64,000 bases of DNA from Geosiphon pyriformis. Lineage: Eukaryota > Glomeromycota > Glomeromycetes > Archaeosporales > Geosiphonaceae. This document shows, in pieces, positions 13,301 through 63,330 of this stretch. The stretch covers positions 141,859 through 205,858 of the forward strand of contig JAAOMT010000776.1 in the NCBI GenBank assembly GCA_016748015.1, in the 5' to 3' direction. The notes beneath the pieces are model-generated. The model ran no database searches. It worked only from the letters and a program-made list of their open reading frames with translations, and was not told the DNA's origin. Both the position numbers and the translations under genes were made by a program. How positions within the stretch are numbered: position 1 is the first letter of the stretch; every line of letters begins with the position of its first letter.

Positions 13301-13319
13301 GCTGCTATAAACTAAAATA

Positions 13320-14650: not shown

Positions 14651-14730
14651 TACCTTGCTTATTTTGATCTTTTTAAAAAATTAGAGCTGAAATAATACAA
14701 TAACAATAATAAAAAAATATGCTCTGAAAA

Positions 14731-15112: not shown

Positions 15113-15229
15113 AAAATATACAAGTCAATTTTGTAGAAAATACCAATAATCAGATAGAATTTATTTATACCAATACAGTTATTTTTATTTCTCTGTATTG
15201 ACAGTACATTTTGAAGATTAATTAAAAAA

Positions 15230-18250: not shown

Positions 18251-18339
18251 ATTAATAGTTGTTTTTTTGGAAAAGCTTTAAAATAATTGCAGATGGCAAA
18301 TGCTTAATTATGCTGATTACTAAAGATTAGCTAGAGTTT

Positions 18340-18651
18340 TTAGGTGTTTTAGTTGAATATAATATTGGTTTTAGACAGTTAATCATTACTAATAAGAGTT
18401 TAATATTGCATAGCTTTTATAACAAAAACTTTAATTAGCATAGTAATGCTATTAACTTTGAATAAAAAGTTATTAATTTTGTCAATAAAAGTTTTGATTA
18501 CTTTATTAATAATAATAATTTTGGCACTAACAACATAATCAACTTAACAATCTAATTAGTCTATAAGTTATCTGATAATAATATTGTCTGCTAACCTACT
18601 ATCAAAAATAAATTTGATAGATTGGCCATTAACTTTAATATCAGTATACAT
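18340..18651 (-). pseudogene. Retropepsin-like protease relic (element D)
   Basis: From the ATG at 18649-18651 the minus strand reads MYTDIKVNGQSIKFIFDSR, the protease start and active-site region (DSG with Gly changed to Arg), then LADNIIIR. Homologous positions in element A read IKLILDSKSASNII. Later parts are interrupted by stops. The overlapping 89-codon plus-strand frame at 18584-18853 is its antisense shadow. Confidence 0.65.
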
Positions 18652-18659
18652 AATAATAA

Positions 18660-26559: not shown

Positions 26560-27500
26560 AATTCAATAGGTTTATTCAGTAATTAGTTATCATGTCATTC
26601 TTTCTGTTTTTCTTGTAACTTTTAAATATTATCAGCTGCTCTTTGTCTTTTGTTTTCCAATGTTTTCATTAGCTTGTATGTTTTTCTTAACAATATTTTT
26701 TGGAAATTGGCTTTTGTTATTGGTTTAGTTGAATATGTATTGACTTTTATTTTAACTAGTAGTATTACTGTTCTATTATAAACAAGTTTAAATGATGTTG
26801 CTTGTGTGGTATTTTGCTTCATTGTCTTATAAGCAAATAATACTGATGATATAAACAAATCCCATTTATCCTGGTTTTTTTGATTAATTTTGACAATTGC
26901 TTCACACAATGTTCTGTTAAACTTTTTAACTAAACTATTTGTTTATAAATAATATGGTGATAATAATAATCTCTTGATTTCAAATCTTTAATTTAATTCT
27001 GCCAATATTTTGTTTACAAAATAAGTTCCTTGGTCTGATAACAATTTTTTTGGACATTCATATTGGCAAATCAAATCTTGATGAACAAATTCAGTTACAA
27101 ATTCTGCATCTGTTCTTTGAATTGCTTTTGTCTCTGGCCATTTTATAAGATAATCTATGGCTACTGCTATATAATGATTGTCTCTGCTGGTTATTGTTAA
27201 TGGTTTTACTAAGTTAATTTCAATTCTATCAAATAGTTGTACTTTAATTGATCTTAATGGTTTATTGGGTCTTGTTTTTTTTCTTCTCTGATAAGCATTA
27301 CAACTTTGAATATATTGAATGATGTCTAAATACATTAATGGCCAGTAATATCTCTTTCTGGTTCTTTCTATGGTTGTTTTTTTATGAAAATGTCCTGTTG
27401 TTGAATCTAAATGCATGTTATATAATATTGTTTCTCTTTTTGGTTTTGTAATTATTCTGAATAATTGATTTGAATCCTTTCTGTTTTTCCAATATAATAT
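26560..27500 (-). pseudogene. Integrase of element A
   Basis: The 142-codon frame 26988-27416 holds the end of the HHCC zinc-binding region (HFHKKTT...CNAYQRR) and the catalytic core. The first catalytic Asp is changed to Asn (EINLVKPL, codon 27213-27215); the second remains (LLSDQGTYF). The Glu-bearing part follows at about 26.9 kb (next to the frame 26622-26909 that contains YKTMKQNTTQ). Integrases insert the element cDNA in the genome. The Asp-to-Asn change and stops make this copy inactive. Neighbours are RNase H upstream and ORF3 downstream. Confidence 0.85.
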
Positions 27501-27699: not shown

Positions 27700-29090
27700 T
27701 TTTTTCCTTTTTATAATGTACTGTATATTTAAATAGTGAAAGTTCTATTTTCCCTTTAACATAACAATTGTCTCCAAATTTTTGCTTCTGGATTGATGTC
27801 AATTTTTTGTGATCAATATATACTTCAAACTTTTGGCTTAAATACTTTTTCTATTTAATAACTGTCTAATAGATAGCTAAGTATTCTAGTGCTGGTGTTT
27901 TATAGTTTTTTTCTACTGGACTCAAGCTTCAGCTGGCATATACTACTGAATGTTTTCATCTATTCAGTTCTTTCTGAGATAGTATGACTTTCAATGCTTG
28001 ACCAAATGCATTGGTAGTAATAATGAATAGTTTGTTGTAGTTTGAATAGATTAATACTGGTGCTTAAATAAACTTTTTTTTTAGAATGTCAAAAGCTTCT
28101 TGCTGAGTTTCAGTCCATTCATATTTCACGTTTTTAGTTTAAAGTTAGTGGAGTAGTTAAGTTAGTTTAGAGAAGTTTTGGATAAAACAGTGATAATATC
28201 CAGCAAATCCCAAAAATGCTCTTAATTCTGTAAGATTTGTTGATATTAGAAAGTTTTTGATGATCTCAATCTTGTTTAGATCTGTTTTGATTCCATCTTT
28301 GCTCACAACATGCCCCAAAAATTTTAGTTCTGTTTTGCCAAAAAAATACTTGTTTGTATTTAGTTTCAATCCAGCTCTTTTAAGTCTCTTAAATACTTAC
28401 TGTAAATAATAAAGATGATCATCAAATGTTTTTGAAAATACATTGGTGTTATCCAAATAAAAAACTACTGATTTTCATAACAGTCTAGTATAAACAATTT
28501 CTATAAGTTATTGGAAAGTGGCTGGAGCATTAGTTAAGCCAAATAGCATTACTTCAAATTTGAAATTCCCTTCTCTGATGGTAAACACAGTTTTCTCTTT
28601 GTCTTTTGGTTTTATGGCTATTTGCTAATAGTTACTGTTTAAATCTAATGTTGAAACTCATTTCTTTCCTCCAAAAACATCAAATAATTTCTGAATCTGT
28701 GAAATTGGATAGCTGTTTCTATAAGTAATACTATTGAGTTTTCTATAATCTACACAAAAACATATTTTTCTATTCTTCTTATAGACTAATACCACTGGTA
28801 ATAACCATGAACTTATTAATGGTTGAATTAATCTATTGTCTAATATCTGGTTGATTTCCTGTTAAATAATTTCATGACTTGCTGATAATATTCTATATAC
28901 TTTTTGTTTAATTGGCATTGCATTTTCAGTTTTGATTTGATACTAAATAATGTTAGTTCTGCCAAATTTATTTTCACTGGCAAAGATATCAGTGAAATTA
29001 TTAAGCAACATCTTGAATCTGTTAAAGTGGATCTAGATTTTTCAAGTTCATTTGTTTTAATTGTTTTGGTTGGAGCAAATAACATTTTTC
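27700..29090 (-). pseudogene. Reverse transcriptase and RNase H of element A
   Basis: The RT runs from a leader with TDIFASENKFGRTN (about 29.0 kb) through FCVDYRKLNSIT (28.75 kb), STLDL, FGLTNAPATFQ and YLDN at 28448-28459, the catalytic YxDD with the last Asp changed to Asn. The thumb segment 28157-28369 (ELKFLGHVVSKDGIKTD...) is intact. RNase H follows at about 27.75-28.1 kb. The domain order and motifs are those of Ty3/Gypsy pol. In-frame stops occur at expected Gln and Trp positions. Confidence 0.85.
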
Positions 29091-29099
29091 TTATCCATA

Positions 29100-29470
29100 T
29101 ATTGCTTGTAATATAATATCCACATATTTGCATAGTTGTGGAAAGTCTGAAATAATGCTTAGTAGTTGGTCTTTAACTTTAGTGCTTAAGTATCCAATAA
29201 TGATTTCTTTTGGTATTTTAATAAAATTTTTAGTTGTATTGTGAATGAAAATTTTGATGTGTTTGTGGCTTTTAGCTAGTATGTAGAAATTGGTAATAGC
29301 AATCTCTTCTAATTCACAAATAGTAGCTTCTGCTTCAAAAATCTGGAACTGGTCTCTTGCTTTTCTTTCTATAACTACTAAATACTGGTCATATAATAGA
29401 ATAAAAATTGATTGACAGGTGGAGATAATTTCTTTCTTGTCAATAACTTTTTTTCTGTTATATTAACTGA
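29100..29470 (-). pseudogene. Beta-rich domain after the dUTPase-like domain (element A)
   Basis: The minus strand reads LAKSHKHIKIFIHNTT near 29.25 kb followed by a segment with IPKE. The same domain is at 61976-62218 in E (KAHKHFKIPIYNLTEDVIEI) and at 15295-15486 in C. The pattern (alternating hydrophobics, N-x-T, I-x-I-P-x-G) resembles a beta-sandwich and could be a partial second dUTPase-like fold, but this is inference. It links the dUTPase-like domain with RT. Confidence 0.45.
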
Positions 29471-29482
29471 TATATCTATTCT

Positions 29483-29870
29483 ATCTATAAATCTAAATCC
29501 ATTTTTTCTCTTGGCTGTAATCTTTAATTCTTTTTTTGTTCCCACTAATACTAACTAAGCTATTTTCACTAGAAGTAAGAATATTGCTTGTGCTATTTTT
29601 TCATTTGGTTCAATAACATATTCTTTTTCCAAGTCATTTTGTAGTATTACAATAATATTTTTTATATATCCTATATTAATTATTTCTTCTCTAATATTGA
29701 TTTCCTTTTTTGCTAAATTAGATCTAGATGCTAATTAAACTATGGTTGTTGTTAGAATTTTTAATACTACTTTCAGATTAATACATGTGTGTGAATGTGG
29801 TTCTAATTTGATGGCATCTTTTCTCAAATATCTTAAATCAAATTTTATATTAGTATTATGTGTGTATTCT
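29483..29870 (-). pseudogene. dUTPase-like domain in element A pol
   Basis: All five motifs of the trimeric dUTPase family are traceable in order: motif 1 HNTNIKFDL (29834-29860), motif 2 ASRSNLAKK (about 29.72 kb), motif 3 EIINIGYIKN (29.67 kb), motif 4 NEKIAQAIF (29.59 kb), motif 5 ITAKRKNGFRFIDR (29.48-29.52 kb). The catalytic Asp of motif 3 reads Asn and glycines read Arg, Lys or Glu, all by G-to-A. Length, about 128 residues, fits the family. It lies between the CxxC-rich linker and the beta-rich domain, upstream of RT. Confidence 0.8.
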
Positions 29871-30099
29871 GACATAATATTTTTATTATTATCACTAAAC
29901 TATTTGAGTTTTTATTTCTTTAAAAAATCAAAAAGTGCAATATATTGTTTTGAATTTGAATTAGAGTTAAAATTTTTACTGTTGTTATTGCCATATTGAA
30001 CAGAGCTGAAACTATTATTATTATTATTATTATCATTGTCAGAGTTTGAATCAGGATTGAATTTCGATTCCAATTTTACAGTGCATTTACTGGTTGGTT

Positions 30100-31020
30100 C
30101 TTTTTCTTCTGAGATCATGTAGATTATGTGTAGTGGTGGATTGTAAATAAGATTACAATTATTGTAATACTAAAAGTCACATAGTATTAAACAATAATCA
30201 CATAGCCAGATGTTTAATTGTTCTAAATATTGCTCTTGTTCTTGTTTGGTTGGTGCTAAATTCTTGTAATGTTCATGAAATTTTTCTGAGTCAGCTTCGA
30301 TATCAAAAAATGCATCTGGATTGGAAATAAAGACAGTTTCAACAGATTCTGGTGGGTTGTTTTTGATTTCCAAGATTTTACTGGGTAATGTATCTTCAAT
30401 CTTAGCAGTGGTCATTCACCAAATCTTGTCTTCATTGTGTGGTTAACCATCTAAGTATAAAATTGCTTGGTTTTATGTGACAGTAAAAGATGTTCTATGA
30501 CTTATCCAGTTACTTATAAAAATTATGTATTGGCATGAAGCATCACATGTTCTTTTTTAACCAGGAATGTTGTTCCACATTTCTTTGTTAAATAGGGTTT
30601 TTCTACAAGTGAGACATGATTTGTTGTCCCACTTTTCTTGTCTTTTTGGGTAGCTATAATGTTCATAATAGCACAGCTTATAGTAATAATGTGTATATGT
30701 TCAGTAATCTTTATTGGATGCAATCCAGGCTTTCATAGAGAACAGCTTTTTCTTGCAGTTCTTGCACTTGAGTAGAATATATAGTGGCTCTGATTTGGTG
30801 TTAGTTGAATAAAATTTTTCTCAACTACTGGTAGTTTTATTGATGGTGATATCTTCTTGTGGCTTATTTTTTTTTTCCTTTTTTTTTTATCATTCCAAGA
30901 GAAAATTGGTGGCAATTTGTTGTAATCAGTGTTAGTTCATAAGACTTGGTAGGCTTTTTAAGTAGGTTTTTTTTCTTTTTCCTTAAATTTTATAAGTGGT
31001 GCCAGTGTAATGTTGGGTTT
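30100..31020 (-). pseudogene. CxxC-rich linker between protease and dUTPase-like domain (element A)
   Basis: The minus strand shows SCLTCRKTLF and TCDASCQY at about 30.53-30.65 kb and LCDYCLILC at about 30.2 kb, with an acidic Glu-rich stretch between (frame 30170-30415, containing EQEQYLEQLNIW). The arrangement suggests two or more small zinc ribbons. After them comes an Asp/Asn/Ser-rich tract (29912-30118) leading to the dUTPase-like domain. No function is known to me; the same linker is in C and E. Confidence 0.55.
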
Positions 31021-31059
31021 AAAATAACCACAGATGACTGGTACTTGAGTGTACTGACT

Positions 31060-31392
31060 ATTTTGGCTAAGTTGCAATTCTTGGGTGGTCTAGTTAAGTA
31101 TAGCATTGGTCTTAAACAGCCAGTCATTACTAACTAATGCTTGGTATTGGATGGCTTTTATTACAAAAATTTTTATAGACATAACAATACTGTTGACTTC
31201 AAATAGAAAGTTGTCAATTTTGTCAATAGGAGTTTTAATTGCTTTATCAGTTGTAATAATTCTGGCATTGGCAATACGATTAATTCAACAACTTAATTGG
31301 TCTATGAGTTGTCATGTGATGATGTTGCTGGCTGATTTACTGTCTAGGATCAGTTTGATGGACTGATTATCTACTTTAGTATTTGTATACAT
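31060..31392 (-). pseudogene. Retropepsin-like protease of element A
   Basis: From the ATG at 31390-31392 the minus strand reads MYTNTKVDNQSIKLILDSKS; the active-site triad DSG has become DSK (Asp codon 31342-31344). Downstream, FEVNSIVMSIKIFV and NDWLFKTNAILN complete the usual length of about 110 residues. It matures the gag-pol polyprotein in active elements. At least one in-frame stop is present. Confidence 0.75.
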
Positions 31393-31949
31393 TGCAGTAA
31401 TAAGTTTTAATTTAAGAGTAGCTCTACTGAATAGCAGTGTTTTGATTGGTCTTTTTAGTTCCAAAAAAAAAATGGTGGTAAGTAATTTGTTTTTGGTAAT
31501 AGTGGCTGAAGATATGTTATTGGTAAGTAGTTAAATTTAATTGGGTTTCTGTTCACTGAATTTGGTGTCTTTTGAGATAACCAAAAGACTTAAATAGTTT
31601 TGGAAATTTGGGTTTTAGTTGTACTCAATTCCTGAACTCTATTGGTAAGATCTTGATGGTTAATTTGATGAATTAAAGATCAATTGGTACATTATTATTA
31701 CTGATCTCCAGTTTTAATGTGTATGTGTAATTCTCAGTCTTTGGTTTCTAGATAACATCTGAACTGGATTTTGTGATGGTGTTAGAATAGATTAAAGTTA
31801 ATAGACTACTGGTGGCTGTGGTTAATAAATGACTGGAGCTGGTGTTTGATAAATTGGAGGTATGTATATTGGTTGTTACATTATTTGTGAGTAATGGGGT
31901 TAATATTAATCCTAATTTAGTGAATAATTTGGAGTTTGAAACCAGCAAT

Positions 31950-33700
31950 TGGGGTTTTTATATTGATTTTCTAATCATGAGTTACCATTATAATGGCAGT
32001 CAATTTTGATGTGACCTTATTTACCATAATTGTGGCAGGTATGCATTTTTGGCTCCCATGGTTAATTGGTTGATAATAAGGAATGTGATTGATTTTAAAA
32101 CCAATTTGAGTTTTCTTGATTATTATATCATTGTGAAGATTGATAGATAACCTGATTATTAGCTAAGTATCCCTCTAATTTTTAATTAATAAAATTACTG
32201 AATTGTTTTAACTTAAAGTTCAATTTAGATGATCTATTTATCACTAGATTAATGGCTTGGGTGTGATTAGCTTTGAGTTCAACTGATTTGAAATTTCTGG
32301 CATAGATAACAGCATTCTAAAGTATTTGTGAATATATTAAATATATATATTGTAGGAAACTACTGCATAGACCATAAATAAATTGATTCAAGATTTGTGA
32401 TATGGTGAAATAGTTTGTGTTAATTGCTTGTATTTGGCATAGGCTTCTATGAAAACATCTTAAGTAAGTGATGACTGCTTCAGTTTCTCTTTGTTTAATG
32501 GTTGTAAAAGTATTTGCTAGACAATTGATACTATTATTATTACTAAAATATCTTAAAAATTCAACTTTGAATGTATTAAAGTCTTGGAGTTTTTGGATCA
32601 GGCTTTAATATCATGAATTGACAGTATTTTAAAAAAAATATGAGATTGCTTATAATGCTCTGACATCATCTCATTCATTGGCTATGATGGTTTTTTCCAT
32701 GTTATTGAGCCATATTTATATGTTGTTTTCTTTGCTGGTAAATTTTTTGAGTTTTACAATTGATATATATGTTATTAGTGTTAATAGTAGTTGTTGTTAT
32801 GGTTGTAGTTACTGTTGAAGCTGCTGTTGAGATGGTAATTGTGGCTGTTGTTGTTGCTGTTTAGCAATTGATACAACTGGTGATGAATCTATTATGATTA
32901 CTGAAGATAAGTTTTGATGAACAATAGGGGCAGAGTTTGGATTGTTTGAGTTTGGCTGAGTTAAAACAATTGAAGTTTGAGTTTCTGGGTTTTTGAGATT
33001 AGGTTTTGATAATTAAATTCCTGATTCTTGTCTTTCTCTTTTTCTAATTCTGTTATTTTCTAAGAACTAGTGGTTCTGAAATTTGGTTGGAGTAACAATA
33101 ATCAAAATCCTGATGGCATTGATAATTATGATTTAAATCTTTCAAAATAATTGCCATAAGTTCCTAATAAATTGGCTTTTTCTTGGTTGCTTTGGAATAT
33201 TATTCTTACTGATAGTATTCTTGCAGTTGATGTAGACATGTCTGCTAATGTTATGTTAATGATATTTCCTGATATATAGTAATATAATGAATAAATAAGA
33301 AAAACTACTCTTGGTTTTTTCTAAATAGATAGTTGTATTCTTTTTGGTGTTCCTGCTAATGTTTGTAGTTTTTTCTTGCCTTTTTCTGCATAAGTAATAA
33401 AAAATGTTTGTTAGGTGTAATTTTTAATTTCTCAGTTGATTTTGGTAATAATTGATGTGAAGTTATAATTTATTGGTAAGCTGGTATATTGAATTAATTC
33501 ACTGTAAAAATTTTTTTTTGCTGATTTTGTATTTATTAGTTTTCTTAAGAAATATTTAATTCTTTTGTTGATGTAAAAGTTGAAGGCTAATTTCACTAAT
33601 AGTTGGTTGTTGGTTAATCTCAAATGCTAACAATAATATTGAAATAAAGATTTGGCAAATCTTAAATAGTTTGTTCTTCTTCTTTCTAATTCTGCCACTT
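31950..33700 (-). pseudogene. gag of element A with zinc knuckle
   Basis: The capsid part (about 32.2-32.75 kb) reads with few stops: FNTFKVEFLRYF, TYLRCFHRSLCQIQAI, ILNQFIYGL. A Gln-rich tract occurs at 32790-32865. The zinc knuckle CHNYGK, stop, GHIKIDC is at 31996-32037, with the second Cys changed to Tyr and a stop in place of one residue. Gag packages the element RNA. The region is the whole span between PBS and protease. Confidence 0.75.
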
Positions 33701-36949: not shown

Positions 36950-37420
36950 ACAGTTCAGAAAAAATTTTCACAAATTCTTGATTCCTAAAAAGAAAACACC
37001 AAAGACTAACAAGTGCTCTTATCATATTGGACTTGTTAATAATAGCAATATTACTTTTTTGATTTGCAAAACAGAAGTGGCTGATTATTTTATAGACTTG
37101 ATTCTAAACAGTAGATTATTTGTCAGCATTATTGCCAAACACTTCCTTAAAGCTATTGACAAAAAAATAAATGAACTTTTAACCAAATCTATGACCAATA
37201 TACATAATAACAAAAAAAACTTGGTATTCCCAAAGCTATTTCTGTTTACATTAATAATATTAGCATTGAAACTGACATAGAAGTATTTAAAGCCAAGAAG
37301 TATACTATTGGCAATAAATAATTTAAAAAAGCTAAAGTTTTATTTGACTATGAACTATGTGAGTTAACTATTAGATATAATAAAAAATCCATTGTGGTTA
37401 AGTATCATTATTAAACATTT
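36950..37420 (+). pseudogene. Aspartic protease of element B
   Basis: The frame 36978-37280 contains the active-site region DLILNSRLFVSIIAKHFL; catalytic Asp is changed to Asn (codon 37107-37109) and DSG reads NSR. Downstream a second segment (GIEIETDIEVFKAKKYTI-like, 37.26-37.42 kb, with one frameshift) is preserved as an open frame in the inverted relic at 53842-54042. Protease activity is lost. Confidence 0.75.
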
Positions 37421-37439
37421 TCTCTAATATTCAAACAAA

Positions 37440-38210
37440 GTTTAAAAAAACAATCAAACAAATTAGATGATGATAAAAGTAAAAAAAAAAAGAATGAAAA
37501 AAAACAAGAAAAAACTGCTAAACTTGCTTATACTATCTTTATCAGTAATAGCAAGCCATTGGACAATATTAAAACTGACAAAAAAAAAATCATTATAAAT
37601 AACAAGCTAATTTGTTGGTTTTACTATAACATATTCAAAAAAATCTTTAACAAAAAGCCTAACAAAAAAGCCAAATATAGTTATTAGTAGCATGATTTTT
37701 GTGTCTGGTACTGGTGTAATAAATTATTATATTTTTTTAGTAATAAATGTATGTTTTGCCTAATCTATTACAAAGATTAAAAATTTATTATCCTAATACC
37801 CAAAAAAAAAAAATTACAAAAGTTCTTTAAAAACAAAGCACTTGAGATCTAATTACCAATAATAAAATACTGAAAACTCTTTTTTAAAGAAAAAAAAGTG
37901 GACATTGAAAATCTACTGGCTAAAAACAGCTTAGTTATATTAAAAAAAAATAATACTTCTGGACATATTTATGTGATACAACATACTATTACTACCAAAG
38001 AAACTTGCTCTATTGACCTAAAGCCTTATCAATCTAATTAACACAATAATAAATTTATTAAGAAAAAAATAAACCGAATAAAAAATTTTGAATTTATACA
38101 AAAAACCAAGAATAAATAGACATTTTTAGTTGTAATAATATTCAAGAAAAGTGAAATCCTACACTTTTGTGTTAATTACTGTCAATTAAATACTATTACT
38201 GAAAGAGATA
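37440..38210 (+). pseudogene. Cys-rich linker and first part of RT, element B
   Basis: After a Lys-rich tract the sequence shows paired Cys (FCVWYWCNKLLY, then KCMFCLIYYKD) at 37.70-37.79 kb, a zinc-ribbon-like linker different from that of family A. The RT leader follows (ENLLAKNSLVIL; HVIQHTITT-like at 37.98 kb) and the RT core begins with LHFCVNYCQLNTITERD at 38.16-38.21 kb. It is interrupted there by the half-LINE copy 2. Confidence 0.7.
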
Positions 38211-38345
38211 TTTTTTTTTGTTAACATGTAGTCATGCTGATTGTTTATTAGTTTGTTTAACAATATAGTTGACACTTTTATAAAGCCAGCTTATCTAATA
38301 ATACAATATTACAAGATATAGCTAACCACAAGCAAAAAATCTTAA

Positions 38346-38557
38346 CTACATATTAGTACTACTTATGCAATCTAATGTATTAAACAAGTCCAATTCATAT
38401 ATCTTACCTATAATGCAAACAAGCTCATAACTACTCTTAACAAGACTACTTATCTACTTAGCAATCTGATCAAAATTGGATTTGATACTAGAAAATTGAC
38501 TCTCCCATAATTTCATTATTGTATCAAATATGTTATTATAGACCAAAAAATCTTTAA

Positions 38558-38635
<78 letters not shown>

Positions 38636-40660
38636 TGTCTTCATCTTCAAATACATTAACAAAGCAGATTTTTTCACTTCTTTTCTTAAGATTCACCATT
38701 TTTTTTTACAGCAAAGAAGCTACAGTATTAATAGCTTTAATTTGGGTTGTTATTTCAACCATATTTTCCTTTAATGCTTCTGTCATGACAAGTAAAGTAG
38801 ACAATAATTTAGTAACCAACACAACCAAAAAGTCTACAGACTCAATTATAAATTTTATCAACAAAAACAGTTCATTAAAATAGGTTTTTAGAAAAGCCAA
38901 CTTAATATTAACAGCAGTATTCAGACCAGAAGAAACAACAGACAACAAAGATGTTAAAACTTTGGAGGAGACACCAAAAGCCAGATTCATATCAGCAGCA
39001 GCAGCAACAAAAGAAACTACAGAGGTAACAGCTTTGACATAAAATTTAGTTCTAATAAAAGATAACTTGAAAACTTTGAGACCACCAGCAGAGTTAAAAG
39101 ATAATTTAGAAGAGAAAAATGATAACACTTTGTAGTTCACAGCAAATGATTCAAATCTTGATATTTGTAGTAGTGGTAATATTCAAAAGTTTCTCACCAA
39201 ATACAGCAGCCATGTAAAATACCAGTTTTTAATACAGCAATGTTTAAAAAATCCAAAAAATTAAAAATAACCATAGCAAAACATTAATATTAATATAACT
39301 CAGGAAAATGGAAAATGAAACAAGTATGGCTGCCAACTTGAGAAACCAAATTACTAATCTTAAAGACAGTACAACCAAAAGAAAAATTGATTAACTTAGC
39401 TTTAAAAGCATTTTTTAAGGTGATAATTTTCTTTTGGTTGACTAAAAATAGAATCCTAATACTGTTTTTTTTAACCAGTACCAATTAATGAGTAAGAGCA
39501 GCAGCGGCAGCAGAAAAAGAGTCTTTAAATTGAACCACAGCATATTGTTACAAGCCAACAGACTTCAACTTAACTGAAATAACAACACCAAAAATGCTGA
39601 GAGAGATTTTAATGTCATCAGAAAAAGTACCTAAAAGTATATTACAAAGTACAACTAACAAAGAGAAAAAAAAACAAAGGCCACACCAAAAAACTGAGCA
39701 ATTTTAAAAATAATCAGAAAAACTTCATTACTAATGGCCACTTTGGTGGTACTATTTAGACTTTTCTAAAATGCAAATTCCATACAGAACAATTTAATAG
39801 CATTTTTTAAAACAAACTTAAGTCCAATACAACTAGGCAGCAACTAAAACAAAGAACTAAACAGTGCTATTTTAATCTTAAATATAGCACCAGGTACTAG
39901 ATTGAAGGCCACCCAACCAGAAAACTTTTAACAACCATTTACATTTTTCCAAGCATCACTATTAATAACACCAGAAACTGGAAAAGAAGCAGTTAATTCT
40001 ATTTTCATTTAATCAGTCCAATCTTTAAAATTATCTAAAATAATGGACTGTTTTGCTTCCAGGATTAATAACAATTTACCAAAAAGTATCATATTAGACA
40101 ATACAGTCAGTGGTTAATCTTGGCCTATTTTAGAAAATGTGTTGCTGCTGTTGCCATCTATATTAGGAAAAAAGCTGACTGTTGCTGTAAAAATCTTACC
40201 CAAAATTTCATCTAAAACCACAAAGAGATTTGTTGTAATTATAATAGTTGCAAGTACCAGCTGCTGTTTTTTGGAATTTTTGGCTTTTATAGTCATTTAT
40301 GAAGCACTAATAGTAGTAGTTATAGAAATAATAAGAGCAGAAAAGACCAGCTTGTTAAATAGTCTGTTATTAAAAATTTTTGGGTTCTTAGAAATAGTAA
40401 AAACAACACTAAAACTAATTTAAGTATGTCTTTTGGAAGAAACTTTGACAGGAGAAAAACTATCAACCAAAAATAAAAAAATAAACCAGAAGCTATTAAA
40501 GGCAGTTTTTTACTAATTTTTTTTAAGAAAAATGTAGCCAAAACGTTTTGTTTAGCTGCTTTAATAACAGAAAGACTCTTTTGTGTTGGAATTTTATTAG
40601 TTACTATAAAAAAATAATATTTGCAACTTTTTTACTTTTAGTTTTAATCATAGTCTTAAA
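38346..40660 (-). pseudogene. ORF1 of half-LINE copy 2
   Basis: Same domain order as copy 1: Lys-rich N-terminus with KNSKKQQ (40.27 kb), RRM-like segments (39.3-39.7 kb), zinc-knuckle region (39.15-39.2 kb), Leu/Val-rich heptad-like region (frame 38706-39140: ELFLLIKFIIESVDFLVVLV), then a C-terminal part (38454-38699) with an Asn run encoded by the (ATT)n repeat. The ORF ends in TNM then TAG. Stops and frameshifts break it. Confidence 0.7.
38559..38633. repeat. (ATT)25 microsatellite within half-LINE ORF1
   Basis: 75 bp of perfect ATT repeat. On the minus strand it reads as an Asn (AAT) run within the acidic C-terminal part of ORF1. Copy 1 has a short interrupted Asn/Asp run at the same place (about 21.69-21.73 kb) and copy 3 a shorter one (41.60-41.63 kb), so it expanded in this copy. 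Confidence 0.9.
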
Positions 40661-40685
40661 AATTAAGAAAAAAAAAGTTTTTTTT

Positions 40686-41247
40686 AAAAGAAACATATAT
40701 CTACTTCCCAAGATTAATATAATATTAGACAAATTTAATAGTGCTACTTTCTTCTCAACTATTAACTTAACTGCTAAATTTTGGCAAGTAGAAATAGATC
40801 CAGAAAGCAGAAAAAAAATTGCTTTTATTACCAAGTATAATACTTATAAATAACAATTATGTCTTTTGGTCTTACTAATGCTTCTTCCATCTTTCAATGC
40901 TTGATAGACAAAATATTTGAATCAGTCAAAGAAAACTTTGTTTTGGTTTACTTAAACAATATAATAATATACTCAAAAACCTGAGATAAATATCTTGAAT
41001 ATTTGCAAAAGATTTTTAATCTCTTTAAAAAAGCTGGTCTTAAAATTAACTCAATTAAATCTTTCTTTGGACAACAATTTACACAGTTTTTCAGTCATCT
41101 TATCACAAAAAATGAATTTTTTCTGATTCAGCCAAGATTAAAAAAGTCTAAAACATTAAGCAACCAATAAATATTCATAAATTATGATTTTTTCATAGTT
41201 TGGCCTTCTATTATTGAAAATTTGTCAAAATTTTTCCAAAATTGTCT
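40686..41247 (+). pseudogene. Second part of RT of element B
   Basis: Continues the RT: IYLLPKINIILDKFNSATFF, FWQVEIDPESRKK, then after a frame break FGLTNASSIFQC-like sequence at 40.87 kb and LVYLNN at 40946-40960, the YxDD motif with both Asp changed to Asn. The thumb (FSHLITKN) and FFHSLAFYY segments follow. It ends at the duplication AAAATTGTCT at 41238-41247, the insertion site of half-LINE copy 3. Confidence 0.8.
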
Positions 41248-43629
41248 TTTTTTTTTATGTTAATATATAGCTATACCAGTTGTTTATTAGTTATGTTTAC
41301 AAAATTATAGCATTTTTCATAAAGCCAGCTTATCTGATAATACAAAAATTACAAGATGTAGCTAATCATAAATAGAAAGCTCTGACTATATATTAATGCT
41401 ACTTATGCTATCTAATATATTAAACATATTTAATTTATATATCTTATTCATAATACTAACAACCTCATAATTATTCTTAACAAGACCACTCATCTATTTA
41501 ACAGTTTAATCAAGATTAGATTTATACTAAAAAACTGATCTTCTTATAAATTCATTATAATATTAAAAATGTTATTATAAACTAAGAAATTTTTATCATT
41601 ATTATTATTATTTCTATATCATTATTATCAAATACTTTTTTCAAGCAGATCTGTTTACATTTTTTCTTTAAGTTTACTATCTTTTTTTGTATTATAAAAA
41701 TCACAACACCAATGGCTTTAATTTTTTTTACTGTCATATTTATGGCAAATAAAATAAATAACAATTTGATAACTAATACAACCAGAGAGTTAACAGATTC
41801 AATTATAAATTTTATCAACAAGAAAGTTCACTAAAATGAGATTCCAAAGAAGTCAACTTAAATTCAACAGGATTATTGAAAGTAGAAAAAACAACAGGCA
41901 ATATAAGTATTGTAGTTTTGGGGAGGCCACCAAGAATTAAGTTTATATTAGCAGCAACAATAACAGAAATAACCACAAAAGCAGCAGCTTTAGCATAAAA
42001 TTTAGCTTTAGTAAATAAAGATTTGAATACTTTAGGGCCATCAATAGAGTTGAAAAAAAATTTGAAAAGAAAAAATGGTGGCACTTTGTAGTTTACAGCC
42101 AAATAATTCAAGTCTTAACATTTGTAGCAGTGGCAATATTCAGGAGTTTCTTACCAAATACAGCAACCATGCAAGATACTAATTTTTGACACAACAATAT
42201 TCAGAAATTCTAATGAATTAAAAATAACCATAACAAAGCATTAATATTTATATAATTTAAAAAAGTGAAAAATAAAACATGTTTGGTCACTAATTTGGAA
42301 GACCAAATTATTTATCTTAAAAACAGTACAGCCAAAAAAAAGATTAACCAACTTAACTTTAAAAGCATTTGTTAAAATAATAACTTTTTTTTGGTTGACA
42401 ACAGAGAGAATTCTAATACTGTTTTTTCTAACCAAAACAAACTAATAAATAAAAGCAACAGCAGCAAAAGAGGTGTCTTTAAAATAAACTATAACATATT
42501 GCTACAAACCAATAGGCTTTAACTTAACTGAAGTGACAACACCAAAAATACCAAAAGCAGTTTTGATGTTATTAAAAAAAGTACCCAAAGGTACATTACA
42601 AAGTACAACTAACAGAGAAAAAACAAAGACCATACCAGAAAACCATGTAATCTTAAGAATGGTCAAAAAAATTTTATTACTAATGGCCACTTTGATAACA
42701 CCATTTAGACTCTCTTAAGATGCAAATTCTATATAAAACAACTTTACAGTATTTCATAAAACAAACTTAAGCCCAATACAATTAGACAACAACTAAAACA
42801 AAGAACTAAGCAAGGCTATTTTGATTTTAAATATAGTATTAGGTATTAAAGTAGAGACTACTCATTCAAAAAACTTTTGGCAATCATTTATATTTATTCA
42901 AGCATTACTATTAACAGCACCAGAAACTAAAAAAGAAGTGATTGATTTCAGTTTTATTTAATTAGTTTAATCTTTAAGATTATTTGCAATAATAGACTGT
43001 TTTGCTTCTATAATAAATAATAATCTGCCAGAAAGTACTACATTAAGCAATACAACTGGTAGTTAATCTTGTCTTATCTTAAAAAATGTGCTGTTGTTGT
43101 TGTTATTTATATCAGAAAGAGAGCTAACTGCTATTGTAAAGATTTTTTTCAAGATTTTATTTGGAACTGCAAAGAGATTCAGTATTACCATAGAAATTAT
43201 AAGTGTTTGCTGCTGTTTTTTGTATTTTTTGGCCTTTTTAGCCATTTGTAAAATAGTAATAATAGTAATAATAATAGTAGTAATAAAAATGATAAAAGCA
43301 GAAAAGACCAATTTAACTAGTCTATTATTAAAAATCTTTGAACTTTTAGAAATAGTAGAAACAATACTAGAACTAATCCAAGTATGCTTTTTTGAAAAAA
43401 CTTTGACAAAAAAAAAACCACCAGCCAAAGATAAAAAAAATAAACTAGAAACTATTAAAAACAGCTTTTTATTAATGTTTTTTAGAAAAAATATAACCAG
43501 AATATTTTGTCTAACTGCTTTAATAACAAAAAAACTTTTTTGTGTTGAAATTTTATTAGTTACTATAAAAAAGATAACATTTACAACTTTTTTACTCCTA
43601 GCTTTTGTTGTAATTATAAAAATTAAGAG
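41248..43629 (-). mobile_element. ORF1-only LINE-derived element, copy 3 (2382 bp)
   Basis: Flanked by perfect 10-bp duplications AAAATTGTCT at 41238-41247 and 43630-43639, inside the element B RT-to-RNase H junction. Minus-strand ORF1 stop at 41396-41398, a 148-bp 3' UTR and terminal A-run. The ORF1 pieces (42502-42690 with FGVVTSVKLKPIGL; 41815-42111; 43063-43428 with AKKAKKYKKQQQ) follow the same order as in copies 1 and 2. No ORF2 sequence. Confidence 0.85.
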
Positions 43630-45450
43630 AAAATTGTCTCTCTTTTTAATCAGCTACTTAAAAAAAATGTTATTTATTATTGAAATATATATCAACAAAA
43701 AGCATTTGAAACTTTAAAAAAAAATGAATTACAGAATTTATTTTTATGCAACCTGATCTGGATCAACTTTTTATTTTTTATACTAATACATTTGGCTATA
43801 AACTTGGTGCTGTTTTCTCACAAAAAAATAAAGAAAACAAGAAATATATTATAACATATGCCAATAGAATACTCTTATCAACAAAACAAAATTATTTAGT
43901 TACTAAGCAAAAATACTTAGCAGTAGTTTGGACTACTAATTATTAGAACAAATATCTTTTTAGTTTAAAGTTTTTGGTGGTAATAGATCACCAAGCTTTG
44001 GTTTGATTACATAACAAAAAGAAGTTAATACATAAACAGATAACTTGCTAAATACTTTATTTAGATGAATTTGATTATAATATTTAATATTACAAAAGAA
44101 TAAATCATCAAAATGCCAATGCTTTTTTTAGACTTATTATTCAATAATAATACAACTTTCATAAACCAAACCAATCTAATTATTAATAACTCTCTCTTAA
44201 ACAAACACAATAATAGACTTAAACAACTACTTTGCACTAATAAAATTTTTGAATAAAAAATAATACCCATCAGAATACAATTGACAGCAAAAAAAACATT
44301 TGCACAAACAATCCAATTTTTATTTAATCTGTTAAAACTAGTTATATAAAAAAACAGAAAAAATTCTGACCATTCTTAAAGAGTCATCAAATTTGAAAAA
44401 AAAGAAATTGTAATTTACAACATTTACATTAATCTATTAGCTAAATACTTTAGAAAAACAAAAACAATTCAAAAAATCTTAGCTTGTTATTATTGACCTA
44501 CTTTAGAAAAAAACATTGCTAAATACATTAAAACCTGTAATACTTGTTAAAAAAAAAGAAAACCCAATTACAAAAAAGATATCTATTTAATTTTTGTTGG
44601 TCAATTATTTAACAAAATTAATATAGATATTGTTAGATCTTTAACAATAATCTTTGATGACAACAGATATATTATTACAGCTATTAATTATTTTATAAAA
44701 TAAGTAAAAAGAAAAGCCACTTTAGATCAAATAGCAGTCTCCATTGTTAATTTCATTTATAAAAATATAATTTGTTATCATAACTGTTCTAAAGAACTTT
44801 TATTTGATAGAAAAAAAGCTTTTCTTAGTACACTAGTTGAAGAACTTTGTAGAAAAATGGAAATATATTATAAACTATTTTTTCTTTATTACTTTTAAAC
44901 AAATGGCCTAGTAGAATATTTCAATAGAATACTATGTAAAATTTTAGCAAAAACCAATAAAAAAACAAACTTATAAGACAAAATATTGTATTTAACTTTG
45001 TTTGCTTATAAGACTATAAATCATAACATAACAAGTTATAAATTTTTTTATTTGCTCTATAGATAAATGACAATTCTACCAATAGAACTAATATTGAAAC
45101 AATATTTTTTAAAGAAATAACAATAGAGAATTACAAAGATATTTTGCAAAAAAAACTTGATATCATTTTTGATTCCTTAGTAGAAACATATATAATTGTC
45201 TTTAAAAAAATAAAACAGTTTCAAGAAAAGCTTAAGAAAAAAAAACCTATAAAATACTTTTCTTAAGTATTGGTAACTTAGTTTTGAAATATTGCTCAAA
45301 CAAAGACAATATCTATAGTGATAAATTTTTTAGCTGGTAAAAAAACTTTTTATAGTCAACAAAGTTTTAAAAAATAGTTTATATATTCTATACTTTTCAT
45401 AAGTATTGGATCAAAAATCATCTATATACTATTTTAACTATTAGAAAACA
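43630..45450 (+). pseudogene. RT end, RNase H and integrase of element B
   Basis: Resumes with KIVSLFNQLLKKN at 43.63 kb. RNase H (43746-43946) reads DQLFIFYTNTFGYKLGAVFS, its first catalytic Asp changed to Asn, then QNYLVTKQKYLAVVW. Integrase: zinc-binding region with CYY, CNTC (44.48-44.55 kb), first Asp in KINIDIVRSL (44.62 kb), second in LLFDRKKAFL (44.80 kb), Glu in TNGLVEYFN (44.91 kb), so the DDE triad itself survives. A C-terminal segment with IGNLVLKYCSNKDNIYSDKF lies at about 45.27 kb. Stops at Trp and Gln positions. Confidence 0.8.
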
Positions 45451-52900: not shown

Positions 52901-54324
52901 TGTTGTCTTGATTGGCTTAAGTGGTTGGTCACATATAGCAAATACATGATTCGCACCTAGTTTAGATCATTAAAGTAATGTATAGTACTAGGCCACATTT
53001 GGACTTCACTTATTAAATATATATAAAAAAATTAATCTGATTATTGACTTAGTCATTAACCTGATTGTTAATTACTTTTAATAGCTATATAAGTGATGAG
53101 TCTTTTAGCTGTAAAAAATATTAATGTAGTAATTAATGTAATAAATAATTTAAAATAAATAAAATAACAACTATTATATTAATTCTTCTCATATTGCTTA
53201 TTTTCCTTTTCTTATTTTTAAGTATCTGAACATTTTAGGATAAAAAATTACTTGTTGGCATTTACTTATCCTTTTTTTGACTTATATAATTGTAGTATTT
53301 GAAGATTATTGAATAAAATATGATTAAAAAATACATTTAATATCTGATATCAAATTTTAAAAACACTAATATAAGGCATAGAATTATACTAGTGTGTTAT
53401 TATTTGTTAATAATATAAACTATTTCTTTATCTTCAAATTTTTCAGTTATTTTTTTCAAAAAATAGTAACTGAAATATTTTATGAAATTGATCTTGTACA
53501 TTAAATTCATATTTATTCAATTTGTTTTTTAAAGTTGAATTCTTTTTGATTAATTCTATTATTCTACAATTTTGTTTTTTTTTGTTATCTGTTAACTTGT
53601 TATTCCAACTCATAAAATTATAAAACATTTTTCTTAAGTATTGGTAACTTAGTTTTGGAATATTACTTAGACAGAAACAATGTTTATAATAATAAATTTT
53701 TTAATCAGTGGTAAAAATAGTATAAGCAAATTTAGCAGTTTTTTCTTGTTCTTTTTTATTTTCTTTATTATCACTTTTTTTATTATTTGATTTATCAGAT
53801 TGTTTTTTTTTTAAGCTTTACTTGGATACCAGAAAAGTTGTTTAATAACAACACTTAATTATAATGGGCTTCTTATTATATCTGATAGTTAATTTACATA
53901 GTTTATAATTAAGTAAGACTTTGGTTTTTTTAAGCCATTTATTATCAATAATAATAGTGTATTCTTTGGCTTTAGATACTTCTATGTCAGTTTCAATATT
54001 AATGCCATTAATGTAAACAAAAATAGCTTTAATAATACTCAAATCTTTTTTTTATCTTTATGTATATTAGTTATTAGTTAAGTGAAAAGTTCATCAATTT
54101 TTTTATTAATTGCTTCAAAAAAATGTTTGGCAATAATACTAATAGATAATTTACTGTTCAAAATTAAATCAATAAAATAACTAGCTATTTGGGCTTTATA
54201 AATTAGAAAGATAATATTACTATTATTAACAAATTCAGCTTAATAAAGATATTTATTGGTTTTTGGTATCTTTTTTTTGGAATTAATAATTTATAAAAAT
54301 CTTTTCTAAATTGTGAATGAGTTA

Positions 54325-59229: not shown

Positions 59230-60340
59230 TTAAGATACTGATGACAATGATTCTTGTTTTGCATGATACATTTTTAACCAATTTCTATGTGCTACTTTCT
59301 TTAAAATCTTGTTTTCCAATTGTAATTTGTAAGCTTCATTTCCTAATGTTTCGTGTATATAGAATGAACTGTCCCACTTTGAGTCAAACTTTCTACTCCA
59401 TTGTTTCTCCACTTTTGTATGATGTAACAGTACTTGGTCTTTAATCTTGAATTCCATTGGTTGTTCTGGTAGGCAGTTATTATGTCTTTCTTTTTGTTGT
59501 TCTTGAGTGTGATTAATATTGTCAGCTGTTGTTCTTTGATTGCCTTCCAACATTTCCATTAGCTGGTACGTTCTTCGGTATAAGGTAGCTTTAAAATTTT
59601 CTTCATTGATTGTTTCTGTTGGGTATGACAGTATTACTTGTTCAATCAGTAATGTAGCTTTTCTTCCATAAACTAGTTCGAACAGTGTGAACTGAGTTGT
59701 ATTTTGTTTCAATGTTTGGTATGCAAAGAGTACAGAAGATATGAATAAGTTCTATTCTTGTCTGTTTTTATGACTTATTTTTGCTAGTACTTCACACAGT
59801 GTTTGGTTAAATTGTTCTACCAGTTCATTTGTTTGTGAGTGGTATGATGACAATAAGAGTCATTTTATTCCAAATCATTGGCTTAGTTCAGTTAGTGTAT
59901 TATTAATGAAATGTGTTCCTTGATGAGATAATAATTCTTTTAGGCATCCATGTTAGCAAATTAAGTCTTGATGCACAAATTTGGCTACTGTTTTGGCATC
60001 AGCCACTTGGATTGCTCTGGCTTCTGGCCATTTTGTCAAATAGTTTATGGCAACAGCAATATAGCAATTTCCTTGGGATGTAATCAAGAGAGGTCCAACC
60101 AAATTGATTCCAATTCTATTAAATGGATTTTCAACTGGAATGGGTCAAAGTGGTTCTGTTGATCTTGCTCTTCTTTTCACTGGCATGCATCACAATTAAG
60201 CATGTATTCAAAAATGTCTTTGTACATTGTTGGCCAATAGTATAAATTTAGTGTTCTTTCGAGGATAGCATCTTTGTTAAAGTATTCTGTGGTTGGATCA
60301 GAATGCATATTATGTAATATAGTTTTTTTTTTACTGTTTT
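59230..60340 (-). pseudogene. Integrase of element E
   Basis: The zinc-binding part is at about 60.2-60.33 kb. The core has FNRIGINLVGPL with first Asp changed to Asn (codon 60103-60105), the second catalytic site reading LLSHQGTHF with His for Asp (about 59.93 kb), and the Glu in SQTNELVEQFNQTL (about 59.82 kb). The C-terminal part (59230-59712) is an intact 160-codon frame containing FELVYGRKATLL and the FKIKDQVLLHHTKVEKQWSR segment, the region that in Gypsy integrases binds DNA non-specifically. Two catalytic sites lost, so inactive. Confidence 0.85.
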
Positions 60341-60539
60341 TTATAACTTGTTGTGAGGTGGGACAGTTTTGACATTCTTGTTAATATAGTTGGTTGTCTT
60401 AAATAAAATAATTTTGGGCTTGTTTTCATATGGTACCTCATTTCTGTTGAGATAATATCTCTTTGAAACATAGTGTCAATAGATACTGATGTAATTATTA
60501 ATATGTAAGTGTGTTCATGAGTCTGGGATTAGATTTGTG

Positions 60540-61975
60540 GCATCCTCAACAAACTGTCGGCATTAGTGTTCTTGGATCCTTTCTTGTAATGGACTTTGAG
60601 TGGGAATTGTTGTAGATAAGTACTCCATCTTGCATATTTTTTTTTAATTGTAGATTATTGAGTAATCAAATAAGTTCTTTGTGGTCAATATATAGGTTAA
60701 ATGGTTGACTAAGATAATGTTTCCAAGTTTGTATTGCCCAATAAATGGCAAGACATTCCAAATCTGTTGTGCTGTAATTCTTTTTTGCTGGGCTCATACT
60801 GCAACTAACATAGGCAACTGGATGTTTTCTATTGTCTGGTTCTATTTGTGATAAGATTGCTCTTAGAGCATTTTTCGAGGCATCTGTAATGACAATGAAT
60901 CATTTAATAAAATCTGAATAAATCAGGATGGAGGATGTGATCAAACACTGCTTGAGATAGTCGAATGCTTTCTGTTGATCTTCCTTCCACAAGTACAATA
61001 CGTATTTAGACAACAAATGATGGAGTGGTTTTGTGATGTTCAAGAAATCTTTGACAAATCAACAATAATAATCTGCTAATCCTAGAAATCCTCGTAATTC
61101 TTTGAAGTTGATTGAGGCTGGAAAATCCTTGACTTTTTGGACCTTATCTGAATCGGGCTTGACTTCATCTTTGCCAATTACATGTCCTAGGAACTTTAAC
61201 TCTGTTTTTTCAAAGAAGCATTTATTGGGGTTGAGTTTCAATCTGACACTATAAAGACGTTTAAAGACTTGTTACAGATGGAGCAAATGATTATTGAACA
61301 TTTCAGAGAAAACATTGGTGCCGTCTAAATATACTATAACTGATTTCCACAGGATTCCTTTGTATATGATATCCATAAAGTGTTGGAACATGGCAGGAGC
61401 ATTACAGAGTCCAAAAAGCATTACGTTAAACTCAAAGTTTCTGTCTTGGGTAGTGAATGCTGTTTTTTTTTGTCTTTGGGATCCATTTCAACTTGCCAGT
61501 AACTACTTGCTAAATCTAATAATGAGAACCATTTCTTTTTTTTTAGATTATTCAGAATTTCTTAGATGAGAGGCATGGGATAACTATCTCTTTGCATGAC
61601 ACTATTTAGTTTTTGGTAATCTATGCAGAATCGCACTTTTCCATTTTTCTTGGTGACCAAGACTACTGGGGAAGACCAAGGGCTTAGTGATTCTTTTATT
61701 AAGCCATTGTCAAACATTCGTTGGACTTCTTGTTTGATAAGATTGTTGTCAGATGGGGGTACTCAGTAAGCTCATTGTTTAATAGGTTGAGTGTTTTCTG
61801 TATCAATCTGATGCTTTACAATATCAGTGTGTCTGAACTCATTTTTGCTGGCAAAGACATTGGCATACTGATTCAGAAGGACTTTGAGTTGCATTTGTTG
61901 CAGGGTACTTAAGTTTCCTAAATTTAATTTATTGATCTCTTCTGGTGTGAACAAGTAACTTTTTTTTGGCAAATT
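60540..61975 (-). pseudogene. RT and RNase H of element E
   Basis: The leader frame 61772-61972 (LTPEEINKL-type, with NVFASKNEFRHTDIVKHQI) precedes RT: FCIDYQKLNSV (about 61.62 kb), LLDLASSYWQVEMDP (about 61.49 kb), then a frameshift in a poly-A/T run at about 61.47 kb. The catalytic motif at about 61317-61340 reads YLDG, an Asp-to-Gly change that is not of the C-to-T/G-to-A type. The thumb segment 61059-61241 (ELKFLGHVIGKDEVKPDSDK) is intact. RNase H follows at 60.56-60.95 kb (ITDASKNALRAILSQ, SCSMSPAKKNYSTTDLECLA). Confidence 0.85.
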
Positions 61976-62218
61976 TCATATTTGTAAGGTAATGTCGCAA
62001 AATAAAAATAGCTGTGCAAAATCTGGAATGGACTGGAGTTTTTCAGGATGTTGAATGTTTAATGAGATAGAACTAATAAGGGTTCCTTTGGGGATTTCAA
62101 TTACATCTTCTGTGAGATTGTAGATGGGGATTTTGAAGTGTTTATGGGCTTTGGCCAGCAGGTATAAGTTAACAACATTGGCTAGAGAACAGATTTCAGG
62201 ATTAGCTTTAAATAACAA
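61976..62218 (-). pseudogene. Beta-rich domain of element E pol
   Basis: An open 80-codon frame with ANVVNLYLLAKAHKHFKIPI, then EDVIEIPKGTLIS and IPDFAQLFLFCDITLQI. It is conserved in A (29.1-29.47 kb) and C (15295-15486). It lies between the dUTPase-like domain and the RT leader. The alternation of hydrophobic residues and the I-x-I-P-x-G-T pattern suggest beta strands; identity unknown. Confidence 0.5.
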
Positions 62219-62349
62219 GGCTTGATCTTGGATTTTTCGATTTACCTTAAGAAGATATTATTGGTAAGAGGGAATAAAGATGACTGTGTTGGTGTAGATA
62301 AGTTCTACCTGGTCACTGTCTTCCTCCATGAAGTTGATTGGTACATTTC

Positions 62350-62736
62350 CTCTTCCATTTGATCCAAACCTGTTGATTCTTCAGGTAGTGAGACCTAATT
62401 CTTTTCAGATTGTTATCAGAACTAATTGGGATATTTTGACTAAGGATAGGAAGATAGCTTGGGCAATTTTTTCTTGTGATTTTATTTTGTAGGATCTGTC
62501 CAAATTGTTTTGTAGCATTATGATGATGTTTTCTGTGTAACCAGCATCGATGATTCCTCCTTTTACATTGATTCTTTTCTTGGCTAAACTAGATCAAGAG
62601 GCAATTTGTATCATTGTGCTAACAGAAATTTTTAACACTATCTTAAGATCTATCTTTACAAGAGAATGTGGGGCTATAATTATGGGTGATTGTCTAGAGT
62701 ATTGTAGGTTGAAACCAGTATCAGTGTCATGTGCTT
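62350..62736 (-). pseudogene. dUTPase-like domain in element E pol (best preserved copy)
   Basis: Motif 1 AHDTDTGFNL (62708-62734), motif 2 AS-stop-SSLAKK (62579-62602; CGA to TGA), motif 3 GGIIDAGYTEN (62528-62560, with the catalytic Asp present), motif 4 EKIAQAIF (about 62.47 kb), motif 5 RINRFGSNGR (about 62.35-62.38 kb). The spacing and about 128-residue length fit trimeric dUTPases. An active enzyme would lower dUTP during reverse transcription. The stop in motif 2 inactivates this copy, but the motif residues are close to consensus, so loss appears recent. Confidence 0.8.
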
Positions 62737-63330
62737 TTTTGGGGCAGATTCTTTCTTCATTATTACTGTACCATTTTAATTCTAATTCTTTGAATAGGTC
62801 AGGATATGCGAGATATTGCTCTGTTTTGGTAGTCTCATTAGGCTCTTGAAATGGCATGTCCTCAACTATTAACTCAGCTTTTTCTTCAGGTTTTGGTAGT
62901 TCATCAATAAGGTGTAATATTCTTGGCAGTGGATTGAACATGAGATCACATTCATTACAATACTGGAAATGGCAAGAGATTAGGCAATGATCACATAATT
63001 TCGTGTTTAAATCAGCTAGTTTTTGTTCCTGTTCTTCTTAGGTCAAGACCAATTCTTGGTAATGGTCCTAAAATGCATCCGGGTCATCAGTAAAAAAATC
63101 TTCAGTAATGTAATCGGGTCTTTTGTATTTGGATACAAATGGGTTTTCTTTGATTTCTCATATTTTGCTGAGTGTGGCACCTTCAGCTTTGACACTGGCC
63201 ATTCTCCATATTTTGTGCTCATTATGTGGATAACTGTCCAATTAATTGAGTGCTCATCTTCAGGCATTCTCGATTGGGGTTTCCTTTTGTATCCAATTAT
63301 TGATCAAGATAGTATATTGACATTGTTACA
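62737..63330 (-). pseudogene. CxxC-rich linker of element E pol
   Basis: The minus strand reads TKLCDHCLISCHFQYCNECD at about 62.94-63.0 kb, two CxxC pairs plus an extra Cys, a likely zinc ribbon. Upstream are a Glu-rich helix-like stretch and, in a second frame, WRMASVKAEGATLSKI (about 63.17-63.2 kb), matching the corresponding region of A. Downstream the frame 62594-62941 leads into the dUTPase-like domain without a break. Homology to A and C ends at about 63.33 kb. Confidence 0.6.

Follow-up and report, generated by a model that had tools for sequence, protein, structure and literature searches.

The window, as we call the whole stretch of 64,000 nucleotides of Geosiphon pyriformis DNA analysed here, has a G+C content of 25% and contains decayed copies of three Ty3/Gypsy retroelements, E, A and C. 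An earlier note on this DNA had placed a dUTPase-like domain between a Cys-rich linker and the reverse transcriptase (RT) in each of them, and this arrangement was recovered in all three by tblastn with natural Geosiphon proteins and with pieces of L017, a Geosiphon relative with a natural open frame. Element E contributes the following features.

62948-63322, minus strand: Cys-rich linker, C-terminal part; 43% identity to L017 linker residues 157-276
62351-62749, minus strand: dUTPase domain, decayed, three in-frame stops; PF00692 E=1.5e-13; 50% identity to the stop-free L017 dUTPase over 62354-62749
61943-62335, minus strand: domain X, in the dUTPase-RT interval; 28% identity to L017 X, E=1.6e-13
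61167-61747, minus strand: RT in two frames; RVT_1 in both frames; 61-66% identity to L017 RT
60681-60995, minus strand: RNase H; PF17919 E=1e-31, PF17917 E=2e-26
59842-60341, minus strand: integrase, H2C2 zinc domain and weak core; PF17921 E=2.7e-10; rve E=7e-4, under cut-off

The Pfam profile has a cut-off of 22 bits, and the E dUTPase scored 51.1. Motif 2 contains a stop and motif 5 is altered, and among the nearest PDB sequences are dUTPases of yeast, a chlorella virus, lentiviruses and plants. The span begins at 62354 with the L017 probe, and the earlier note had given 62350-62736; its coordinates are correct within about 15 bases. The RT shifts frame near 61470, and the protease lies past the window end. 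The linker of E is found in two parts about 5.6 kb apart (L036 3181-8763), and the intervening DNA, which starts near 63323 and lies mostly outside the window, is mostly masked; an insertion is the likely cause of this split. Element A extends further upstream, to a remnant of gag.

32368-32598, minus strand: gag remnant; PF03732 E=5e-4, under cut-off
31054-31401, minus strand: protease; 53% identity to L017 protease, E=3e-33
30179-30673, minus strand: Cys-rich linker; 38% identity to L017 linker
29477-29878, minus strand: dUTPase domain, decayed, two in-frame stops; PF00692 E=1.2e-8
29067-29441, minus strand: domain X; 31% identity to L017 X, E=6e-14
28292-28876, minus strand: RT; RVT_1 E=4e-23
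27713-28126, minus strand: RNase H; PF17919 E=3e-20; 41% identity with the L017 probe
26952-27449, minus strand: integrase, H2C2 and weak core; PF17921 E=3e-15; rve E=1.4e-3, under cut-off

The A dUTPase (29495-29878 with the natural probe) also passes the cut-off of 22, with 35.3 bits (E=1.3e-6 in a long frame), and its protease gave no Pfam protease match at E 0.01. The claim of a real dUTPase domain stands. Element C lies on the opposite strand.

13319-13665, plus strand: protease relic in two pieces; 43-48% identity to L017 protease, E=4e-9
13921-14289, plus strand: Cys-rich linker relic; 28% identity with the L017 probe, E=3e-11
14717-15116, plus strand: dUTPase relic in two frames; tblastn with P0001, P0002, P0026 and others
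15112-15474, plus strand: domain X; 28% identity with the L017 probe, E=1.7e-13
15961-16269, plus strand: RT, part; 43% identity with the L017 probe, E=4e-22; Pfam RT match absent
16464-16757, plus strand: RNase H; 38% identity with the L017 probe; PF17919 E=5e-16

In C the domain is a relic divided between two frames. PF00692 was not matched in any single frame, but tblastn with natural Geosiphon proteins recovered one piece at 14717-14884 and, adjoining it in another frame, a second at about 14910-15116, both on the plus strand, with a joint E of 7e-24 for P0001 and of 6e-34 for P0002, whose match also spans the upstream linker. These two E-type proteins are the nearest to C, in agreement with the suggested division into two families, A versus C and E. 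In the same search, at E up to 1, the reversed sequence of the window gave no match, and all matches fell in the real window. The order protease, Cys-rich linker, dUTPase, X, RT, RNase H is complete within the window for A and C, and no integrase was seen after the RT and RNase H of C. The copies in the window have stops or frame breaks and are dead. A further Gypsy element on the plus strand (about 37250-45000) has RT, RNase H and H2C2 matches and no dUTPase match, so that the domain is not universal among the Gypsy elements here. Protease-like fragments at 18310-18672 and 53875-54012, both on the minus strand, likewise have no dUTPase match nearby.

Relatives elsewhere in the Geosiphon genome show the whole element, ordered gag, protease, Cys-rich linker, dUTPase, domain X, RT, RNase H and integrase. 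In the open frame of L017 the aspartyl protease occupies residues 117-226, the stop-free dUTPase residues 566-697 (PF00692 E=1.3e-24) and RT residues 931-1090, followed by RNase H. Locus L020 adds, on the upstream side, Retrotrans_gag, Ty3_capsid and protease; downstream it continues with H2C2, rve and a weak match to the SH3-like end of the integrase. The integrase follows RT and RNase H in L020, L034 and L024, as it does in E and A, with the core under cut-off in the latter two. A chromodomain, by which chromoviruses are recognized, was found neither in L020 (E 0.01) nor in L034 or L024 (E 0.1), the three Geosiphon loci checked. Direct repeats of at least about 300 nt, several of them truncated where the retrieved sequence ends, lie 8.6-8.8 kb apart and are 95-97% alike in all four family-I loci checked, L020, L034, L024 and L026; this likeness of the LTRs indicates that these copies are fairly young. 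Loci L017-L035 are a non-random set chosen for long frames. In all 19 of them L017 pieces used as probes detect protease and linker ahead of the targeted dUTPase, and in 14 they detect RT behind it; of the other five, L018, L023, L027 and L029 are masked there and L025 is broken after X. Protein P0061 is also ordered protease, dUTPase, RT, RNase H, and its dUTPase runs into RT without X.

Two unnamed modules adjoin the dUTPase and are a notable feature of these elements. The Cys-rich linker (L017:2977-3960), which has no Pfam match in L017, carries several CxxC pairs that are conserved in A and E and in both families I and II; the partial protein P0130 of Racocetra fulgida likewise has a Cys block ahead of its dUTPase. 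Domain X (L017:4372-4785) is about 135 residues long. It comes after the dUTPase in family I and in the A, C and E types, with 28-38% identity between the former and the latter. It belongs to no Pfam family, the sole Pfam match among five sequences having E=0.66. The family-II stretch at this position is only 22% identical to X, and the L017 X probe found no match in family-II loci L023 (masked there), L030 and L035; the presence of X in family II is doubtful. The idea that X is a second, degenerate dUTPase is unsupported at this depth, with a profile comparison probability of 0.1%.

Five ordered motifs, the motif-3 Asp included, are present in L017 and other relatives. We assume the borders of these motifs in our sequences, and we take the motif-3 Tyr, motif-4 Gln, motif-5 Phe and motif-2 Arg to be active-site residues. 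Residues were counted in 41 copies, 25 of family I and 16 of family II, a high-scoring and ungapped sample from which A- and E-type, short, gapped and identical matches were excluded. The Tyr, Gln and Phe occur in every copy (25/25 and 16/16), the motif-3 Asp in 24/25 and 16/16, and the motif-2 Arg in 18/25 and 16/16, respectively; 22 of the family-I and 10 of the family-II copies are stop-free. According to the available text of PMC4531489, the motif-3 Asp steers dUTPase catalysis.

The structure check suggested with the original proposal gave a dUTPase beta fold, as a prediction for the natural relative P0071 and not for E itself. The AlphaFold2 model of P0071 has a mean pLDDT of 76; across residues 51-180 its ten-residue means run from 82 to 98, and confidence drops at the motif-5 end (60 and 42); an earlier model of A1 from a narrow alignment was unusable (pLDDT 46). 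In Foldseek, 248 matches to the P0071 model pass 0.001, and the top PDB match is yeast Dut1 (3hhq, E=1.7e-9, TM-score by target 0.77). Matching viral models include dUTP diphosphatases of large DNA viruses, polyproteins of bacilliform viruses and lentiviral pol.

A survey for selection within Geosiphon found stop-free copies and evidence of constraint. Between families, dN/dS of the dUTPase was 0.144 (16 copies) and, in another set of 17 sequences, 0.168, and that of the protease was 0.187 (10 copies), values that are rough given the many synonymous changes (dUTPase tree length 6.1). This comparison covers dUTPase and protease; no near-full-length stop-free RT copy outside family I passed the filter. 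Within family II the dUTPase gave 0.206 (10 copies). Within family I values were high in every part measured, with kappa at its bound: 0.49 for dUTPase (22 copies), 0.56 for protease (15), 0.52 for X (13) and 0.66 for RT (10). There the selection signal is swamped by decay after insertion, and constraint is clear only between families. The low between-family values, 0.14 for dUTPase and 0.19 for protease, indicate that the dUTPase was selected while the elements were active. Moreover, the domain occurs in four Geosiphon types, in the partial Racocetra P0130 and in further proteins, as expected if it has been kept for long.

The descent of the domain was followed in an unrooted tree of 20 dUTPase domains, a short domain that leaves several inner branches weak. 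The host DUT, yeast, 3so2 and chlorella-virus enzymes form one group with support 99. A split of support 98 places these four and P0069 on one side and, on the other, the four Geosiphon types together with Racocetra P0130 and six further proteins. The element dUTPases are thus apart from host DUT, with the exception of P0069, which falls on the cellular side; the RT tree was weakly supported, hence unused. P0069 is a protein of 1,937 residues with gag, protease, dUTPase, RT and RNase H, and a separate capture of its dUTPase would fit this position in the sequence tree.

These elements are abundant in the Geosiphon genome of 124.7 Mb in 406 contigs. Searching it with PF00692 yielded 3,181 loose candidates, and all 150 of those scored passed the family cut-off. 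The codon pattern of IAQAIF in motif 4 has 1,089 exact matches against none for the reversed-pattern control, so that about 1,000 or more copies retain motif 4; this number is a lower bound for motif-4 tags and not for whole elements, with family II (IAQAIY) uncounted. An RT pattern has 296 matches, a count that is not comparable with 1,089 because each hinges on the conservation of its own motif. The host DUT is a separate multi-exon gene, split by introns, at C262:402677 (L057, C262:401177-404202), and all five motifs can be read by eye from its frames, with GVIDADYRG as motif 3. The idea that the host lacks DUT and relies on the element enzyme was dropped when a motif pattern located this gene. 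A piece of yeast Dut1 searched against the genome gave no match above 37% identity among the 150 scored of 2,908 candidates.

We consider it very probable that the stretch at 62351-62749 is what decay has left of a true dUTPase domain of the trimeric type, fixed in pol of an abundant Ty3/Gypsy lineage of Geosiphon and, seemingly, of related fungi. In live copies the protease may free the Cys-rich, zinc-binding-like linker with the dUTPase, presumably a trimer, beside RT. The enzyme would hydrolyse dUTP to dUMP, and RT would thereby make low-uracil cDNA in nuclei or hyphae poor in host dUTPase, to the putative benefit of the element. A role of dUTPase in non-dividing cells is stated for lentiviruses in the available text of PMC4531489. 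Several points count against this reading: constraint is clear only between families, the host owns a DUT, which calls into question the need of the element for a second dUTPase, the motif-2 Arg is present in only 18 of 25 family-I copies, and the model is of low confidence at its motif-5 end.

The existence of host DUT would also suit a domain that has kept the dUTPase fold for a mainly non-catalytic role, such as nucleotide-gated binding or holding of RT or RNA, comparable to the regulatory side roles of some phage dUTPases. Phage dUTPases with a regulatory role in their entry titles are among the fold matches, and the Cys-rich module directly precedes the domain in Racocetra P0130 as well as in four Geosiphon types. 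However, active-site residues are retained in most of the 41 copies, which would be needless in a purely structural domain, and we regard such a role as unlikely.

Protection of the element against heavy C-to-T change, as proposed in the earlier note, must be weighed against the pattern of decay. C-to-T and G-to-A changes account for 1,977 of the 2,105 non-majority cells in family-I pieces, and the available text of PMC4531489 links the loss of lentiviral dUTPase to G-to-A changes in non-dividing cells. Outside CpG, where these two changes also dominate far above all others, there is a slight G-to-A excess (ratio 1.24, CI 1.06-1.47; at third codon positions 1.25, CI 0.91-1.72; intervals here and below resample sites and ignore the relatedness of copies). 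CpG methylation does not explain this non-CpG share of the decay with its slight excess. However, mean T or A frequencies are 0.22 and 0.21 at CpG against 0.04-0.06 elsewhere, about five times higher, and the changes at CpG are strand-symmetric (ratio 0.95, CI 0.85-1.08); a strand bias of the kind seen upon lentiviral dUTPase loss is not dominant in family I. By analogy, the CpG part of the decay resembles what deamination does to methylated DNA once it has been inserted. The available part of PMC8647823 reports that transposon loci of Rhizophagus irregularis are more CpG-methylated than the regions flanking them, and that no RIP signatures were detected in Gigaspora margarita. A dUTPase lowers dUTP and cannot act on deaminated cytosine in inserted DNA; the suggested match between domain and decay is therefore unsupported, and a protective role of this kind seems very unlikely. 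The dUTPase and the C-to-T decay, once joined, are now separated. A hypermutation that spares CpG was rejected as well: it was derived from singletons only, which seemed to spare CpG because variation at a CpG site is nearly always shared by several copies, and counts over all copies showed the reverse.

It is highly improbable that the dUTPase is an idle passenger of one capture, carried along functionless, to which the within-family dN/dS of 0.49 and the stops in 3 of 25 family-I and 6 of 16 family-II copies could point. Between families dN/dS is 0.14-0.17, by point estimate no weaker a constraint than on the protease, and the domain is retained in four Geosiphon types, P0061 and P0130. Chance likeness of motifs in AT-rich relic sequence, conceivable for decayed copies in a window of 25% G+C, is refuted to a negligible residue by the profile E of 1.5e-13, the empty reversed-window control, the fold match and the stop-free relatives.

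With a true dUTPase as the preferred reading, its position can be compared with known systems. Retroviral dUTPases have the same fold, with EIAV among the PDB matches and EIAV, FIV and maedi-visna pol among the viral models. They lie either with NC before the protease or between RNase H and integrase. The Geosiphon domain, after the protease and before RT, has neither the betaretroviral nor the lentiviral type of placement. In its available text, PMC4531489 gives two other genomic locations for the retroviral gene and describes NC as part of the betaretroviral dUTPase protein, which is loosely like the Cys-rich part with dUTPase in Geosiphon. The available part of PMC1142308 mentions the dUTPase of HERV-L only. 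Host fungal DUT is of the same enzyme family, and differs as a separate intron-split gene with its own tree group (support 99).

A placement between protease and RT, which the earlier note had contrasted with the known positions of dUTPase, is already published. According to the available text of PMC2864245, Gypsy elements of Postia placenta have dUTPase at varying places, in PosPlaTy3-5 between protease and RT, and dUTPase had been reported earlier in Phanerochaete and Tuber elements. Postia (PosPlaTy3-3/-4/-5), Phanerochaete chrysosporium and Tuber Tmt1, as described there, are like Geosiphon in having Gypsy elements with dUTPase in pol; they are compared here by description and not by sequence, and the Geosiphon elements have the long Cys-rich linker and domain X. 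A supplement title of PMC2864245 refers to dUTPase domains from chromodomain-containing elements, in contrast to the three Geosiphon loci without a chromodomain match. The bdelloid elements Juno, Vesta and TelKA all share the placement between protease and RT, as given in the available text of PMC5408684. Juno has an extra zinc knuckle, which by this description comes after the dUTPase, whereas the Geosiphon Cys-rich part comes before it; the hosts differ also. In Entomophthora muscae the dUTPase Pfam family is enriched along with transposon domains (available part of PMC11105155). No report of a Gypsy dUTPase in Glomeromycotina appeared in titles or abstract starts among the matches listed, mostly from non-subscription literature. 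Hence the position is known, and what is new is the host group, as far as searched, the abundance and the two companion modules.

A more speculative proposal, possible though doubtful, is that Glomeromycotan Gypsy elements own a cassette of zinc module, dUTPase and X, reached separately from the betaretroviral NC-dUTPase and from Juno. The Cys part would tether the dUTPase to the RNA being copied, and the cassette may have helped to drive more than 1,000 copies into a slow-growing multinucleate fungus.

With these elements, a fungus of arbuscular-mycorrhizal type joins the few groups whose Gypsy elements bring their own dUTPase, one under selection across diverged families no weaker than that on the protease. 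More than 1,000 motif-4 tags offer a large natural sample for asking when a retroelement needs a dUTPase despite that of its host. In addition, many annotated Geosiphon hypothetical proteins (G9A89_*) look like pieces of these retroelements, and such pieces annotated as genes would inflate dUTPase counts in gene-family surveys.
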